From the NCBI GenBank assembly GCA_025060105.1, contig JANXCS010000011.1:1-56163 (forward strand): a DNA stretch of 56,163 nt, read 5' to 3'. The number at the start of each line of letters is the position of its first letter. The stretch's first letter is position 1. Shown here piece by piece: positions 6,155 through 13,049 of this stretch. Source of the stretch: Pseudothermotoga sp. (GTDB taxonomy: Bacteria > Thermotogota > Thermotogae > Thermotogales > DSM-5069). A model generated the notes under the pieces. The model did not search any database. It was not told the origin of the DNA and saw only the letters and a program-made list of their open reading frames with translations. A program made the position numbers and the translations under genes.

Positions 6155-6712
6155 TCAGCTTTTCCTACTTCCCGGTTTCACCAAAGGTACGTTTCGCTCG
6201 CAGAGTGGACAGTTGTCTGGCTCGTATATGGGAAGCTGCAATTTCGCAAGTGAATAGAACGATACGTCGAAGGGGAGTTTTTCGATGGATCTGTCAACGA
6301 TGCTGGCGATACAGCAAACTTTTCCACCGTGTTCTTCGACAACCTGGATCACTTCAAGGACAGATTTGCCGGTCGTTGTGACGTCTTCCACGATCGCCAC
6401 CCTTTCACCCGTTTCTATGTGGAATTCCCTTCTGAGCTTCATCGTTCCATTTTCTCTTTCGGTGAACATCGCACGTGTTCCTAATTGCCGTGCCACTTCA
6501 TAGGCCAGAATAACCCCACCCAACGCGGGACCTATGACGACGGTTGGTTTATGATGTGCTATTTTTTCAGCGATCGCCTTACCGATTTTTTCACCGTACT
6601 CGGGATATTCGAATATCTTGGCACACTGAATATACTTTGAAGAGTGTTTACCGGAAGAGAGCAGAAAATGCCCCTCGAGAATGGCTCCAACTTTCAAGAG
6701 CAATTCAAGCAT
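6155..6712 (-). CDS. pyrE: Orotate phosphoribosyltransferase
   Basis: This 185-residue enzyme joins orotate to PRPP to give orotidine 5'-phosphate, the fifth step of UMP synthesis. The PRPP-binding motif VAIVEDVTTTGKSVLEVI is near residues 108-125, and the substrate loop GHFLLSSGKHSSKYIQ near 14-29 is typical. The C-terminus carries a Cys-x2-Cys tail (NCPLCERN, about 167-174), as in the Thermus/Thermotoga-type short PyrE. It overlaps pyrF by 8 nt. Confidence 0.95.
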   Translation of the reverse strand: MLELLLKVGAILEGHFLLSSGKHSSKYIQCAKIFEYPEYGEKIGKAIAEKIAHHKPTVVIGPALGGVILAYEVARQLGTRAMFTERENGTMKLRREFHIETGERVAIVEDVTTTGKSVLEVIQVVEEHGGKVCCIASIVDRSIEKLPFDVSFYSLAKLQLPIYEPDNCPLCERNVPLVKPGSRKS

Positions 6713-7313
6713 GGACGAACCTCCTCATCTTCTCCATCGTGGCCTTTGGATCTTGACTTTTATAAATTTCTCTCCCTATAACAGCGAAGTCTGCCACACC
6801 TTTGATTTGCTCGAGCGTGACTGTGTCCTTTTGATCATCAGCTCCTCTTTCCATTCGCACACCGGGAACGAGTATTTTGCCCGAGATCTTTTTTCTCAAT
6901 TTTATCGCCCAACTTCCAGGAAGGACGAAGGAACAACCCAACAGTCTGAGTGTCTCCACTTGGTGTGCGTATTCTTCCAACGAACCTTCGATGGAAGTGA
7001 GCTTTACCACAACGAAGATGAGTTTGCTTGTGCTTTCCAAAGCGGCTTTGATAGAGTCGATGCCAGCGGCTGCATGCAACGTGAAACCAACAACTGAAGG
7101 ATGGTCCCAAGCTTTGATCGATCTGATGATGGTGGATGGTATATCTGTGAACTTGAGATCGAGGATGACTTTCAGATCTCTCTTCGCCAACTCGTCCAAA
7201 ACGTGTTTACCCAAGACTGCGAGGTTGTGCCCCACTTTGACGTGTTCAAAACTACCGTATTGATCGATGAACTCGATGGGATTTTCCATGTCCAAACTCA
7301 GCACCAGTTTCAT
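6705..7313 (-). CDS. pyrF: Orotidine 5'-phosphate decarboxylase
   Basis: This 202-residue TIM-barrel enzyme makes UMP from OMP. The catalytic Asp-Lys network appears in VILDLKFTDIPST (about residues 49-61). The phosphate-binding segment PGVRMERGADDQKD is near 147-160, and VIGREIYKS closes the barrel. It starts 12 nt after the alcohol dehydrogenase stop and overlaps pyrE, so pyrF-pyrE are translated together as the last two pathway steps. Confidence 0.96.
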   Translation of the reverse strand: MKLVLSLDMENPIEFIDQYGSFEHVKVGHNLAVLGKHVLDELAKRDLKVILDLKFTDIPSTIIRSIKAWDHPSVVGFTLHAAAGIDSIKAALESTSKLIFVVVKLTSIEGSLEEYAHQVETLRLLGCSFVLPGSWAIKLRKKISGKILVPGVRMERGADDQKDTVTLEQIKGVADFAVIGREIYKSQDPKATMEKMRRFVHA

Positions 7314-7325
7314 TCTCTCACCTCC

Positions 7326-8483
7326 TCAGAGTGCCATTTTCATAATTTCAACGAGATCTTTCTCTTCAAGTTTCTTTGGACTTTTCACGACGACACCTTT
7401 CATGATCCTGTATGCAACCTTTGCAATTTCTGGAAGATCTTGTTCTTTAAAACCGAAGTTTGACAGTTTCTGATTCAAGCCGAAAAGATCTTGAAATTCG
7501 AAAAGTTTCTCGATGAAAAGCTTTGCAGCCTTCTCTACTTTGAACTCATCGATGTTGAAAACTTCTTTGGTGAGCACGGCAAGCCTTTCTTTGCATTCAT
7601 CGAACATATACTGAAGTAAATATGGGCCAGTGATGCACAGACCGAGTCCATGCGGTAATTTTTCATTGAAACCGCTCAACCCGTGCTCTATCGCATGGTT
7701 TGCTATGACGCCTGTGAGTGTTTCCGTGATGCCAGCTTCCGTACTGGCCCAAGCGAGATTGGTCCTAGCATCGATGTCCTGGCCGTTTCTGTATGCTCTG
7801 GTGAGATAGTTGATGATCCTTTTCATCGAGTCTAAAGCCAGCAGGTCTGAATACGGATTGGCATCGATGTTCAAAAAAGCTTCCAGGGAGTGATAAAATG
7901 CATCCATCGAAGTGTACGCAGTTTGATCTTTCGGCAAACTCACCATGAGTGAAGGATCGACGATAGAAACTCTGGGAAAGATCACATCGTAACCTATACC
8001 AACTTTTTCCTTCGTTCGTGGATTGGTGATCACGGCGAATGGATCCGCTTCGGTGCCTGTACCATGCGTTGTTGGTATCGCGACGATGGGTAGTGCCGAG
8101 GTTGGTTTTTTCTTACCACCGGCGTGCGTGTAGTTCCAAAAGCTATCTTTCATTGCAGCAGCGATAGCGATGGCTTTTGCCGAATCGATGGCGCTTCCTC
8201 CGCCAAGGCCGATTATGAAATCTACATTTTTCTCAATCGCCATCTTCGCAGCTTCGTCCACATGATCACTGATCGGGTTGGGTTGAACTTTGTCGAAAAC
8301 GACACTATCGATGTCGACATCTTTTAATGATTTGATCACTTTATCTAGAATCCCCGTTTCTTTAGTACTCTTTCTTCCTGTCACGATCATGGCCTTTCTG
8401 CCGAGATTTTTCACAAGTTCTGACAGTTTTTCAATCGCTCCCAGCCCAAAGACGATCTTTGTGGGAAGATAGCTTATGAACAT
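7326..8483 (-). CDS. Iron-containing alcohol dehydrogenase
   Basis: This is a family III (Fe-ADH) dehydrogenase of 385 residues. A nucleotide-binding Rossmann-like part contains GLGGGSAIDSAKA. The metal site is in the helical half: Asp and His in SMDAFYHSLEAF, then HAIEHGLSG and LPHGLGLCI supply the other His ligands. It probably interconverts an alcohol and an aldehyde with NAD(P)H. I chose the ATG at 8481-8483, which follows AAGGAGGGGG by 5 nt; an ATG 18 nt upstream overlaps the pyrD stop but is itself inside the ribosome site. It sits inside the pyr operon between pyrD and pyrF, an odd place for this activity. Confidence 0.92.
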   Translation of the reverse strand: MFISYLPTKIVFGLGAIEKLSELVKNLGRKAMIVTGRKSTKETGILDKVIKSLKDVDIDSVVFDKVQPNPISDHVDEAAKMAIEKNVDFIIGLGGGSAIDSAKAIAIAAAMKDSFWNYTHAGGKKKPTSALPIVAIPTTHGTGTEADPFAVITNPRTKEKVGIGYDVIFPRVSIVDPSLMVSLPKDQTAYTSMDAFYHSLEAFLNIDANPYSDLLALDSMKRIINYLTRAYRNGQDIDARTNLAWASTEAGITETLTGVIANHAIEHGLSGFNEKLPHGLGLCITGPYLLQYMFDECKERLAVLTKEVFNIDEFKVEKAAKLFIEKLFEFQDLFGLNQKLSNFGFKEQDLPEIAKVAYRIMKGVVVKSPKKLEEKDLVEIMKMAL

Positions 8484-8497
8484 GAAAACCCCCTCCT

Positions 8498-9301
8498 TCA
8501 TGAGAAATTCTTTGCGATCCTTTCAACAATCGAAGGATCTTTGTACAAGATCGTTCCAACACTCACAGCGTTGGCACCCACTTTGAAAAAATCTTCAGCA
8601 TCTTTCTCGCTCGCGATACCACCAGAAGCGATGATGTAAAGTTTGGTTTTGCTTCTCACTTCGTGAACCGCCCTGAGCGCGATGGGTTTGAGTATAGGTC
8701 CAGAGACGCCACCTTTGATGATTCTTTCGCCATCTACGTGGAGTGCCCTGATGGTGTTTATCAATGTCACACCGTCCCATCCGCAGAGTTCTACAAGTTT
8801 GGCTATGCTTTCAACGAAAGCTCCTTCGATACCGAGCTTAGCGATGAGAAAGATGTCCAACTTTCTTCTCAAACTGGAGAGTAATCTTTTGAGCGTTGTG
8901 AGATCTGAAAGTGGGTTGAAATGCACGTTTGGACAAGAAAGATTGCACTCAAAAGCGATGAATTTGTTTTGAAAAGGTGCCATTTTTTCTGCAACCTGTT
9001 CATATTCTTCAAAATTGTCTCCTGCGAAGCTGAAAATGATTTTCACCCTTTCGAACAGCTCATCATACTGTCCCGATTTGAGTTGTTCGATGAAATTTTC
9101 CACGCCAGGATTTTCAAGACCTATGCTGTTGATCAGATAATTCTCCGTAGCGATGAGTCTCGGTGGAGGATTACCTTTTTTTGGTTTAAACGTGATCGTT
9201 TTGAGCGTGTAAGCACCTATGAACTTTGGTTCGATGAGTTTGAGATATTCTCCCATGCCTCCGATTCCAGAGGCTATCACGATCGGTGGTTTTAATTCCA
9301 T
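8498..9301 (-). CDS. pyrD: Dihydroorotate dehydrogenase, class 1B catalytic subunit
   Basis: This 267-residue FMN TIM-barrel oxidises dihydroorotate to orotate. The active-site base is Cys in FECNLSCPNV, as in class 1 enzymes, and the FMN phosphate site ASGGIASEKDAEDFFKVGANAV lies near the C-terminus. It is about 30 residues shorter than most PyrD proteins. The adjacent pyrK gene indicates the NAD-linked 1B heterotetramer. It overlaps pyrK by 10 nt. Confidence 0.94.
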   Translation of the reverse strand: MELKPPIVIASGIGGMGEYLKLIEPKFIGAYTLKTITFKPKKGNPPPRLIATENYLINSIGLENPGVENFIEQLKSGQYDELFERVKIIFSFAGDNFEEYEQVAEKMAPFQNKFIAFECNLSCPNVHFNPLSDLTTLKRLLSSLRRKLDIFLIAKLGIEGAFVESIAKLVELCGWDGVTLINTIRALHVDGERIIKGGVSGPILKPIALRAVHEVRSKTKLYIIASGGIASEKDAEDFFKVGANAVSVGTILYKDPSIVERIAKNFS

Positions 9302-9948
9302 ACCTCTTCACCTCTCAGAGCAGGTCCATCGACACATAAATGTTTCAGACCGTGCTTGGTTTCAATGGCACAACCTCTGCACGCTCCAACGCCACAGGCC
9401 ATGTATTCATTGAGCGAGACAAAAACTTGACCTTTGTCTTTGAGTAGATTGTAAGAAACCTTCTCCATTTGGTCAGATCCAACCACGAAGAACCAATCGT
9501 AAGCTTTCAAAGATTTCAACAAAGCCACAAACTCTTCATCACCCAAGACCGTTTTGAAAGAAACTTCGATCTTTAGCTTTTCAAGGGATCCTATGAATAC
9601 GTCGCAAAGAAACCTTCGATGCATATCGAAAACGATGGCAAGACATGCGGGAGTGGCTATCACGGCTCCTTTACCTGAGGGTGGGGTGAAGCCTTTGCCA
9701 CAGGGACCATGCGCCTTCAAATATCTCTGCTCGATTATGTACTTCGTACCAGGTCCGATCACTTGAACACCTATGGCGAGCTTTCCATACCATCTTCCAA
9801 GTCCGAATGGCTTTCTCACGATTGAGGTTGGTGTCTCTATCATGATGAACTGCGTTGGTTCAAAATTTAAATCTTCGTTGAACGTGATCAAAAAGCTGTC
9901 CGAGGTGAGCTGGATCAACTCATCCCTCGTCAGTGAGAAATTCTCCAT
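9292..9948 (-). CDS. pyrK: Dihydroorotate dehydrogenase electron-transfer subunit
   Basis: This 218-residue FAD and 2Fe-2S protein passes electrons from PyrD to NAD+. The iron-sulfur ligands are near the C-terminus in CGVGACRGCAIETKHG...C, spaced C-x4-C-x2-C-x11-C. The usual FAD motif RPFS is replaced here by RKPFGLG, and GTKYIIEQRYL and HGPCGKGF match the NAD-binding half. The pyrC and pyrK genes overlap by 29 nt. Location and cofactors support the PyrDK complex. Confidence 0.9.
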   Translation of the reverse strand: MENFSLTRDELIQLTSDSFLITFNEDLNFEPTQFIMIETPTSIVRKPFGLGRWYGKLAIGVQVIGPGTKYIIEQRYLKAHGPCGKGFTPPSGKGAVIATPACLAIVFDMHRRFLCDVFIGSLEKLKIEVSFKTVLGDEEFVALLKSLKAYDWFFVVGSDQMEKVSYNLLKDKGQVFVSLNEYMACGVGACRGCAIETKHGLKHLCVDGPALRGEEVWN

Positions 9949-11041
9949 CCCAGTACACCCACCTTCCTGAGAGTTTCACACCGATGATCCTTCCTCTGAG
10001 TTTCACACCGTCGAAAACGGAATTTTTTCCTTTGCTGTGAAACTTCTTAACATCCACAATCCACTCTGCGTACGGATCAACGATGAGCAGCTCTTCTGAA
10101 CATTGTGGCATCTTCAGATTCAAGATTTCTCTCGGTTTGAATGCGAGTTTTTCAATGGTTTTCTCCAACTGGTTTGTGATTGTGTAAAAAGCGCTGAAAG
10201 CCACTTCGATGTTGCTCGTTCCAAAAGGTGCTTTCTCAAAATCGTTTTGTTTTTCTGGATGTGGTGCATGATCTGTGGCGAAAACATCGACGATATCTTT
10301 TTCAACAGCTTCGAGCAGAGCTTTTCTGTCTTGCTCTGTGGCGAGTGGGGGATTGATCTTGAAATTGGTGCTTTTAACATCGTCCATACTGAAAAATAGA
10401 TGGTGTGGGGTGACTTCGCAGGTTACTTTTGCGTATTTTTTCGAATGTTGTATGGTTTCTATCGAAAGTTTTGTAGAAACGTGCTGTATGTGGAACTCTT
10501 TAAAACCGTATTCTAAACCGAGCATGACGTTTCTGAAAATGGAGACTGCCTCGCTGTTTATGGGGCGTTTTTCAACTCTCAACGCCACACCTTCATAAAA
10601 AATGCCACCGAGTTCGTGTAACTGACTGTGATCGAGCAAAAGGTGTGGCCTTTTTGTTCTGAAAGCCTTCACGATCTTGGGTGTGTCGTACTCTATGCCG
10701 TCGTTCGAATAGCAGAGAGTTCTTTCACCGTCTGGTTCAAGTTCACCGAACAGAGAGACAGACCAATAGAATCGAACTGGTTTATCTTTCGCAAGTTCGA
10801 CGTGCCTTTTGAGAACCTCTTCATTTTCGATGCAAGGTTTTGTGTTGGGTTGAATCAACACCGCTGAAAAACCACCAACGATGGCTGCTTTGGAGAGCGA
10901 ATCGTAGTCTTCTTGATCGTTGAGTCGTACGTGTGTGTGCATGTCGAAAAAAGTGGGACAGACGATCAGGCCTTTCCTCCGTTCAGGTAAATTTATCTCA
11001 ACGTCCAGCCACTGACGTTTCAACGGATTGTACAGTTTCAA
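9920..11041 (-). CDS. pyrC: Dihydroorotase
   Basis: This 373-residue amidohydrolase cyclises carbamoyl-aspartate to dihydroorotate. Zinc ligands are visible as DMHTHVR (His35, His37) and in VTCEVTPHH and ATDHAPH further on. The start is a TTG at 11039-11041 behind a GGGAGTGATC ribosome site, so the gene overlaps the pyrB end by 44 nt. An overlap that long suggests tight coupling between ATCase and dihydroorotase synthesis. Confidence 0.93.
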   Translation of the reverse strand: MKLYNPLKRQWLDVEINLPERRKGLIVCPTFFDMHTHVRLNDQEDYDSLSKAAIVGGFSAVLIQPNTKPCIENEEVLKRHVELAKDKPVRFYWSVSLFGELEPDGERTLCYSNDGIEYDTPKIVKAFRTKRPHLLLDHSQLHELGGIFYEGVALRVEKRPINSEAVSIFRNVMLGLEYGFKEFHIQHVSTKLSIETIQHSKKYAKVTCEVTPHHLFFSMDDVKSTNFKINPPLATEQDRKALLEAVEKDIVDVFATDHAPHPEKQNDFEKAPFGTSNIEVAFSAFYTITNQLEKTIEKLAFKPREILNLKMPQCSEELLIVDPYAEWIVDVKKFHSKGKNSVFDGVKLRGRIIGVKLSGRWVYWDGEFLTDEG

Positions 11042-11930
11042 GCTCGATCACTCCCAGAACATACTCCAGCACAGCCATCCTGATGAAAACACCGTTTCTC
11101 ACTTGTTCTAAAATTTTCGATCTTTCTGAATAAACAATATCGTCCGAAACTTCGATGTTTCTATTGAAAGGACCTGGATGCATCAAAATCGCGTGCTTTG
11201 GGGCGAGTTTGATTGTTTCTGAGTTTATCTGCATCTTTCTGAAGAAATCGTCGATGTTTGGATAACTTTCTTCAAGTCTTTCTTTTTGAATTCTCAGTGC
11301 ATATACAACGTCTACATCGAGGATGGCCTCTTTCAAATCGTTCGTTATCAAACTCACACCTTCGAAACTTTCTGGAACAAAACCTTTTGGTCCGACCATC
11401 CTCACTTCTGCGTTGAACTTTTTCAAAAGCTCCGTGAGTGATCTCGCCACTCGAGAATGAATTACATCACCCACGATGGCAACTTTGAGCTGAAGTGTTC
11501 CAAAATGTTCCACCATGGTCATGGCGTCCAAGAGCGCTTGTGTGGGATGTTCGTTCGTACCATCACCTGCGTTGACCACAGCGGCGTTGACACATCTTGC
11601 AAAATCAGCTGGGGCACCGTTTCTGCGGATCCGAATCACCATGCAGTCGAAATTCATCATGTTCAGAGTCAGGATCGTATCTAAATCCGTTTCGCCTTTT
11701 TGGAGTGAAGAAGTTTCTGGAACAAAATCGATCACCTGCGCCCCGAGATTCATTGCAGCCTTTTGGAAAGAGACCTTGGTGCGCGTAGAGGGTTCAAAGA
11801 AAGCCGTCAAAACGAACTTACCAGTCAACGTTTTTGGGTAAATTTTTGATGTTCTGTGTTCTCTGGCTCGCTCCAAGATTGTCTCGATTTGCTTCCGCGT
11901 CAAGCTCTTGATGTCTAAAAGATGCCTCAT
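10998..11930 (-). CDS. pyrB: Aspartate carbamoyltransferase catalytic chain
   Basis: This 310-residue enzyme carbamoylates aspartate, the committed step of pyrimidine synthesis. The carbamoyl-phosphate loop FFEPSTRTKVSF lies near residues 45-56, HPTQALLD near 129-136, and the aspartate-domain segment HPGPFNRNIEV near 253-263. No regulatory PyrI chain is fused or adjacent. The ATG follows GGAGGTGGGAGA closely and overlaps the stop of the leader ORF (ATGA), so pyrB translation is probably coupled to leader translation. It is the first structural gene of the operon. Confidence 0.96.
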   Translation of the reverse strand: MRHLLDIKSLTRKQIETILERAREHRTSKIYPKTLTGKFVLTAFFEPSTRTKVSFQKAAMNLGAQVIDFVPETSSLQKGETDLDTILTLNMMNFDCMVIRIRRNGAPADFARCVNAAVVNAGDGTNEHPTQALLDAMTMVEHFGTLQLKVAIVGDVIHSRVARSLTELLKKFNAEVRMVGPKGFVPESFEGVSLITNDLKEAILDVDVVYALRIQKERLEESYPNIDDFFRKMQINSETIKLAPKHAILMHPGPFNRNIEVSDDIVYSERSKILEQVRNGVFIRMAVLEYVLGVIELETVQSVETSVAGR

Positions 11931-12073
11931 TCTCCCACCTCCACCGAGGCAAAATAAAAGGGCCTTTTCGGCCCTTTCTTTAAAATAAAAGGGGCTTTCG
12001 AAAGCCCCTTTGGACTTGTTTCACATCTATTCAAAAGCCTTTCGTGCCTTTCCTTCGAGCGTTTGAACACCAT
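11927..12073 (-). CDS. Putative pyr operon leader peptide (48 codons)
   Basis: An ATG at 12071-12073 with AGAGGTGGT directly before it opens a 48-codon frame. The frame runs without a stop through both terminator hairpins and ends in a TGA that overlaps the pyrB ATG (ATGA). The peptide begins MVFKRSKERHERLL and is strongly basic (many Lys and Arg), with no family resemblance. Its layout is that of E. coli pyrL, the 44-codon pyrBI leader whose translation disrupts the attenuator when RNA polymerase pauses at low UTP. Promoter, leader ORF, terminators and pyrB follow in that order here. A chance ORF cannot be excluded. Confidence 0.6.
   Translation of the reverse strand: MVFKRSKERHERLLNRCETSPKGLSKAPFILKKGPKRPFYFASVEVGE
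11951..11977 (-). terminator. pyr attenuator hairpin 2 (promoter-distal)
   Basis: On the minus strand AAAGGGCC (loop GAAAA) GGCCCTTT is followed by TTATTTT. The stem is 8 bp. It ends about 20 nt before the pyrB start and lies inside the leader ORF. No upstream minus-strand gene needs terminating here, so it must act on the pyr transcript itself. Confidence 0.8.
11979..12011 (-). terminator. pyr attenuator hairpin 1 (promoter-proximal)
   Basis: Positions 11988-12011 form a perfect 24-bp palindrome with arms AAAGGGGCTTTC and GAAAGCCCCTTT. On the minus strand TTTTATTTT follows. It is separated from hairpin 2 by a few bases, giving two intrinsic terminators in tandem before pyrB. Confidence 0.85.
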
Positions 12074-12096
12074 ACCACCTCTGCCTCTGAAAGAGA

Positions 12097-12102
12097 ATTA
12101 TA
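12097..12102 (-). promoter_or_regulatory. pyr operon -10 element
   Basis: The minus strand has a perfect TATAAT. Initiation about 7 nt downstream gives a leader starting in CUCUUUCAGAGGCAGAGG, about 160 nt before pyrB. I see no good -35. The tandem CAGAGG motif faintly resembles part of a PyrR-binding loop, but the rest of that consensus is absent. Confidence 0.55.
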
Positions 12103-12281: not shown

Positions 12282-13049
12282 ATGTTGAAAGATTTCAAGT
12301 ATGCCTTGGTCACGGGTGGATCTTCTGGAATCGGCAAAGAGTTCGCACTTGAGCTTTGCCGAAGGGGTTTGAAGGTGATCGTAACAGGTAGGGATACAAA
12401 GAGACTTGAAGAATTGACTGAAATGGCAAAGGATATTTCGGATTCATCGATCTTGACTTATACTGTCGAACTTTCCTCAACGGATAATGTGAAAGCTTTC
12501 ATTCAAGACGTTTCGAAATACGAGATAGACCTTTTGATCAACAACGCTGGCTTTGGTTTGTATGGGGAGTTCATCGAACTCGATTTGGAGGAAATAGAGA
12601 AAATGATAGAAGTCAACATCAAGGCCTTGACGATGCTCAGCCACACCTTCGCCAAGAAGATGGTTGAAAGAAAACGCGGTGGGATAATAAATGTCGCGTC
12701 GGTCGCTGGCCACATACCGCTACCGTACTTCAACGCTTACGCTGCAACGAAAGCTTACGTTTATAATCTCTCTATAGCTCTGTGGGCAGAGTTAAAAAAG
12801 TACAACGTTCATGTGATGTGCGTCTCTCCTGGACCAACGGAGACCAGATTTTTCGAGCGAGCTTTCAAAGGACAAAATTTCAAAACCTTTGGAAATCTGA
12901 TGAGTCCAACACAAGTTGCCTTGGGTGCGATAGAAGCTTTCGAAAAGAGGAAAGTCGTCTACATACCTGGATTCAAAAATAAGTTTGTCAGTTTCATCGG
13001 TAAAAAGCTCTTGCCAGATAGAACCATCGCAAAATTCTTGGCTGGCTGA
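12282..13049 (+). CDS. Short-chain dehydrogenase/reductase
   Basis: This 255-residue classical SDR has the cofactor motif TGGSSGIGKEFA (about 10-21), NNAGFGLYGEF (about 87-97) and the catalytic YAATK (about 153-157), with a Ser about 14 residues earlier in NVASVAG. It probably reduces or oxidises a carbonyl/alcohol with NADP(H); Thr-Gly-Arg-Asp after beta-2 suggests NADPH. The start ATG follows GGGAGGAGAGGG. It diverges from the pyr operon and is followed after 59 nt by the glutamine amidotransferase gene. Confidence 0.9.
   Translation: MLKDFKYALVTGGSSGIGKEFALELCRRGLKVIVTGRDTKRLEELTEMAKDISDSSILTYTVELSSTDNVKAFIQDVSKYEIDLLINNAGFGLYGEFIELDLEEIEKMIEVNIKALTMLSHTFAKKMVERKRGGIINVASVAGHIPLPYFNAYAATKAYVYNLSIALWAELKKYNVHVMCVSPGPTETRFFERAFKGQNFKTFGNLMSPTQVALGAIEAFEKRKVVYIPGFKNKFVSFIGKKLLPDRTIAKFLAG

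Follow-up and report, generated by a model that had tools for sequence, protein, structure and literature searches.

Introduction

The closest described counterpart of the locus reported here is the pyrBI attenuator of E. coli, where the 44-codon leader ORF pyrL, which has a ribosome site of its own, passes through an intrinsic terminator located just before pyrB. Coupling across pyrL has been described in E. coli (PMC5021804), and in E. coli reporters ribosomes suppress a terminator that is sited close behind a stop codon (PMC4824070). PyrR acts on the same pathway, through attenuation as in Bacillus or through repression of translation. Ribosome-coupled attenuation is also known from the trp and his amino-acid leaders, and the tandem attenuators of Salmonella mgtCBR show that a single leader can hold more than one control element dependent on leader translation, there with two separate ORFs that sense two signals (PMC3641672).

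Here we describe the leader of the pyr operon of a Pseudothermotoga species, located in a 56,163-nt stretch of DNA that was analysed as a whole (the window). As in E. coli, the leader contains an ORF, preceded by a ribosome site, that runs through intrinsic termination signals just before pyrB, and the hairpin energies are similar. The two systems differ in that E. coli has one terminator and Pseudothermotoga two, in that a U-rich stretch lies well upstream of the E. coli terminator whereas no long U-run precedes the first one here, and in that the E. coli leader ends 3 nt short of pyrB whereas the Pseudothermotoga leader overlaps it by 4 nt. The pyrL and Pseudothermotoga leader peptides, compared by eye, have no visible similarity; we see no sign of homology and treat the leader as an analogue that would work like that of pyrBI. 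Unlike in mgtCBR, one ORF passes through two terminators. We propose that attenuation of transcription, coupled to leader-ORF translation, controls the pyrBCKD..FE operon, and we give this sequence-derived reading a probability of about 0.7.

Results

Architecture of the pyrB leader

The leader lies on the minus strand of the window. It begins with a -10 element, TATAAT (12097..12102), for which a promoter scan found no good -35, followed by the ribosome site AGAGGTGG (12075..12082) and a leader ORF of 48 codons (MVFKRSKERHERLLNRCETSPKGLSKAPFILKKGPKRPFYFASVEVGE; 11927..12073, ATG at 12073). Two intrinsic terminators are located inside this ORF. Hairpin 1 is palindromic, has 10 bp (11988..12011) and carries the U-tract TTTTATTTT at 11990..11982; hairpin 2 has 9 bp (11956..11978) and the same U-tract TTTTATTTT at 11959..11951; each hairpin has a UUUUAUUUU tail. 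The ribosome site of pyrB, GGAGGTG (11936..11942), is contained in the leader ORF, and the leader TGA (11929..11927) overlaps the pyrB ATG at 11930 by 4 nt (ATGA). TATAAT, the leader ORF with its ribosome site, both terminators and the stop-start overlap had been picked out in an earlier sequence-only reading of this DNA, and each was found at its place. On its other side the leader is flanked by a divergent gene (12282..13049, plus strand), and hence the terminators serve no upstream gene.

Under a strict definition, the tandem pair makes up two of the four terminators in the 56 kb window (both strands), and 20 first-order Markov shuffles (one strand) contained none; a looser terminator scan taken alone was not significant, with five found against 3.7 expected. 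Calculated with standard parameters at 37 and 65 °C, the fold energies of hairpins 1 and 2 are -14.3 and -14.6 kcal/mol, and that of the E. coli pyrBI attenuator is -15.3 kcal/mol. An Rfam scan of the window and the leader returned nothing over threshold, and the sub-threshold matches were at chance level only.

Owing to their similarity, the 3' arm of hairpin 1 and the 5' arm of hairpin 2 could pair with each other in place of hairpin 2, which raises the idea of a trp-type switch with a ribosome stalled at particular codons and an alternative hairpin formed by these two arms. In each of the four sequences folded, hairpin 2 is nonetheless clearly favoured over the weaker alternative at both temperatures, and the leader has no conserved run of one amino acid. 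Thus, unlike in the trp and his attenuators, there is no favoured alternative hairpin here and no run of control codons was found in the leader peptide, and we regard such a switch as very improbable.

Downstream of the leader and on the same strand lie pyrB (aspartate carbamoyltransferase, 310 aa; 10998..11930), pyrC (dihydroorotase; 9920..11041), pyrK (dihydroorotate dehydrogenase electron transfer subunit; 9292..9948), pyrD (dihydroorotate dehydrogenase; 8498..9301) and pyrE (phosphoribosyltransferase family; 6155..6712), with pyrK and pyrD scoring under their model cut-offs. The frame at 6705..7313 on this strand is presumably pyrF, a name that we assign from its sequence. Between pyrD and pyrF, the operon also contains a gene that we name from its sequence as iron-containing alcohol dehydrogenase-like (7326-8501, minus strand). 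The closest named PyrB record is from Pseudothermotoga sp. (83%). The PyrI regulatory-chain domain was not detected in the genus, and we therefore read PyrB as probably working without PyrI or with an unrecognised regulatory chain.

Conservation within the genus

We compared the leader of the genome under study (G000) with those of four further species of the genus (G001-G004). The TATAAT element, the leader frame, both hairpins, the pyrB ribosome site and the stop-start overlap (A/GTGA) are kept in all five species, and TATAAT is identical throughout. The leader ORFs measure 147 or 156 nt, each a multiple of three; a 12-nt indel between the hairpins preserves the frame, and close to the ORF's 5' end there is a 2-nt gap that comes with a shifted start codon, again leaving a multiple of three. 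Frame-breaking indels with retained hairpins, which would have spoken against a translated leader, are thus absent from these relatives. The core of hairpin 1 is almost invariant in the genus, and hairpin 2 shows one double change from A-U to G-C between G000 and G004, as read from the alignment.

The sequence-only reading had also expected codons to change synonymously, and this expectation failed. Between G002 and G004 the leader differences fall on codon positions 1, 2 and 3 in the numbers 18, 15 and 20; of the changed codons, 7 are synonymous and 26 nonsynonymous, and the N-terminal third of the peptide is completely different among three subclades. Since substitutions in this pair show no third-position preference, we rejected selection on the leader peptide. 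The kept frame, the absence of third-position bias and the unrelated N-terminal thirds together indicate that what counts is the frame, not the peptide; in the genomes compared, selection appears to maintain a readable frame through the hairpins.

The same comparison bears on the notion that the tandem terminators are constitutive and yield a small protein or short RNA, pyrB having its promoter elsewhere. The hairpins do resemble strong terminators. The peptide, however, is not conserved, the ORF stop overlaps the pyrB start in five of five species, and the promoter scan finds none between hairpin 2 and pyrB, so that this arrangement seems highly unlikely to us.

pyrB leaders across Thermotogota

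We next consider 15 pyrB loci from Thermotogota that were selected for having a terminator, those directly after an upstream gene being excluded. A leader ORF was called when a ribosome site had at least five matching bases and the ORF reached the hairpin, a rule that E. coli pyrL passes. Such an ORF was found at 10 of the 15 terminators against 0.29 expected from shuffles, a comparison whose p-value overstates the case because the loci were chosen for their terminator and related species are not independent.

Among genomes with the same type of pyrB, G005, G013, G055 and G059 have a leader ORF that reaches one single hairpin, and that of G013 ends in ATGA at pyrB as well; G013, G055 and G059 retain the leader ORF and hairpin without a PyrR above cut-off. 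In G006-G009, of the same family with a fused PyrBI, there is a single hairpin and the leader ORF ends in or past it, in G007-G009 without a good ribosome site. In family f5, a PyrR-less genus (G058, G061 and G063) has the leader, and in the f5 genomes in which pyrR adjoins pyrB no terminator was found before pyrB.

Further arrangements were noted. In Thermotoga-like genomes (L052, L054-L057), the frame preceding pyrBI, putatively dihydrofolate reductase-like, ends within the pyrBI terminator and has its stop codon in the loop of the hairpin, so that the leader ORF there may be supplied by a genuine gene. At L058, L063 and L065, all from one genus, a small conserved hairpin of the type GTCGGGYNAGACCGRC is positioned just 5' of the pyrBI ribosome site. 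Upstream of pyrR at L029 and L030, a tRNA gene-like sequence is followed by a short ORF across a terminator and then by pyrR-pyrB.

PyrR and the pyr leader

PyrR is encoded in the genome (G000:C2:292547-293065; 219.8 bits, cut-off 138), and as in Bacillus it could bind the leader RNA at high UMP/UTP and force termination, the ORF being incidental. The leader contains AAGTCCAAAGGGGCTT, two mismatches off the binding-loop consensus. The Rfam PyrR-site model (RF00515), however, yields no match in the pyr leader even when E values up to 10 are admitted, and its single site anywhere in the genome lies before the uracil permease gene uraA (33.7 bits, below the curated cut-off of 54). That site (G000:C2:54085-54188; L080:1501-1604) has a canonical loop that covers the permease ribosome site, and it is shared by the five species of the genus and by G005 and G006; a reversed control pattern gave no matches. 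In four relatives the look-alike does not come within four mismatches of the consensus, and PyrR bound to it would block hairpin 1, which gives the wrong regulatory sign. Relatives without PyrR also retain the leader design. Given this evidence, termination by PyrR in the pyr leader is improbable.

The AAGTCC look-alike was rejected as a PyrR site, as it is not retained as a PyrR consensus in relatives. The sole exact match to the PyrR consensus pattern in the genome lies inside a helicase-like coding frame, and of the other close matches that the AATARATGTRANNNNAGTCC element of the leader has in the genome, the two inspected fall in coding frames as well.

The sequence-only reading had stated that it would be contradicted by a pyrR gene if the pyr leader also held a canonical loop; the gene is present, and its loop is at uraA. 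Thus, unlike in Bacillus attenuation, the pyr leader here has a leader ORF and no loop, and the location of the canonical loop suggests that PyrR probably governs uracil uptake and not the pyr operon.

Candidate pause signals

In many other pyrB leaders a run of at least five U lies upstream of the terminator. The longest run before hairpin 1 is four (p 0.19), no run of at least five was found there in the genus, and over all loci the U-run signal is marginal (combined p 0.02). Hairpin 2 is preceded by the U-tract of hairpin 1 itself, UUUUAUUUU, and this tract may act as the pause for the second terminator.

Before hairpin 1 we found a TGAATA motif (12028..12033, minus strand), located 16 nt upstream of the hairpin in all five species. 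It recurs in 7 of the 13 attenuator groups from pyr and pur genes (family-wise p 0.0015), against 1 of about 69 other terminators (the 94 in the examined DNA minus the attenuators; p 3e-6), figures to be read with the motif and the loci having been picked after inspection of the data. Besides the window, it occurs within the 45 nt before terminators at L049-L051, L016, L024, L067, L081 and L083. TGAATA occupies two of the three reading phases, the phase that would create a stop codon in the ORF being absent throughout, so that what is conserved is likely the nucleic acid. We consider it a candidate pause element.

Leader-coupled attenuation might also sense general translation or another signal in place of UTP, a reading that shares the coupling with our preferred explanation and overlaps it. 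It would suit the missing U-run before hairpin 1 and the occurrence of the same layout with TGAATA before purE elsewhere in Thermotogota, with a PyrR loop over the leader ribosome site. Against it, such leaders stand before pyr (and pur) genes in the loci examined, and the U-tract of hairpin 1 directly precedes hairpin 2. We hold this version to be possible but doubtful.

G014, G016, G018 and G026 have a PyrR loop before purE (61-64 bits, over the Rfam cut-off). A short leader ORF, whose ribosome site is covered by this loop, runs into a terminator just before purE; PyrR possibly controls the purine operon there via the leader peptide. A weaker PyrR loop, under the cut-off, lies upstream of purE in G020 and G043 (purE loci of both sets: L081-L084 around 1501-1630; L085 and L086).

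Discussion

Returning to leader-coupled attenuation of the pyr operon, the elements described above are consistent with the following sequence of events. Transcription would begin just past TATAAT, and a ribosome would load onto the leader ORF. RNA polymerase may then be slowed before or at the hairpins, with TGAATA as the candidate site for hairpin 1 and the U-tract of hairpin 1 as that for hairpin 2. With the polymerase slowed, the ribosome would be close behind, keep both hairpins unfolded and allow read-through, and it would finish at the pyrB start (ATGA), permitting reinitiation. With plenty of UTP, the polymerase would run ahead, either hairpin would fold and transcription would stop, and the same outcome is expected when no ribosome follows. 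The two terminators might also make the shut-off tight, as the sequence-only reading suggested. Leader translation, termination and read-through are what we infer from the leader's layout and conservation. The pyrBI-type interpretation offered by the sequence-only reading stands as regards a conserved in-frame leader ORF over the terminators, the lack of a PyrR site and a layout like that of E. coli pyrL (L068). UTP as the signal is its weakest component, argued by analogy with pyrBI, and is weaker here because no U-run precedes terminator 1.

A wider and more tentative proposal, which we think has a smaller chance of being correct, is that leader-ORF attenuators with a TGAATA pause motif form a Thermotogota-wide class serving nucleotide genes. 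Their input would be swappable, by pausing at pyr genes and by a PyrR loop on the leader ribosome site at purE, and Pseudothermotoga would represent the form with one leader and two serial terminators, the U-tract of the first pausing the polymerase for the second.

The principle is known from E. coli, and the doubled stop signal and the phylum-wide use appear to be undescribed. The literature searched, which took in a minor part of the subscription papers, contained no description of such a pyr leader in Thermotogae, and the main text of the T. maritima transcriptome paper makes no mention of one (PMC3636130).

If our reading is correct, repressor-free, ribosome-coupled control of pyrimidine synthesis would reach beyond enteric bacteria to a deep-branching thermophilic phylum, and the coupling between ribosome and polymerase in these organisms would be tight enough for gene regulation. 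The TGAATA motif offers a candidate pause signal open to direct test. Labour would be divided in Pseudothermotoga, with PyrR for uracil uptake and coupling for synthesis.
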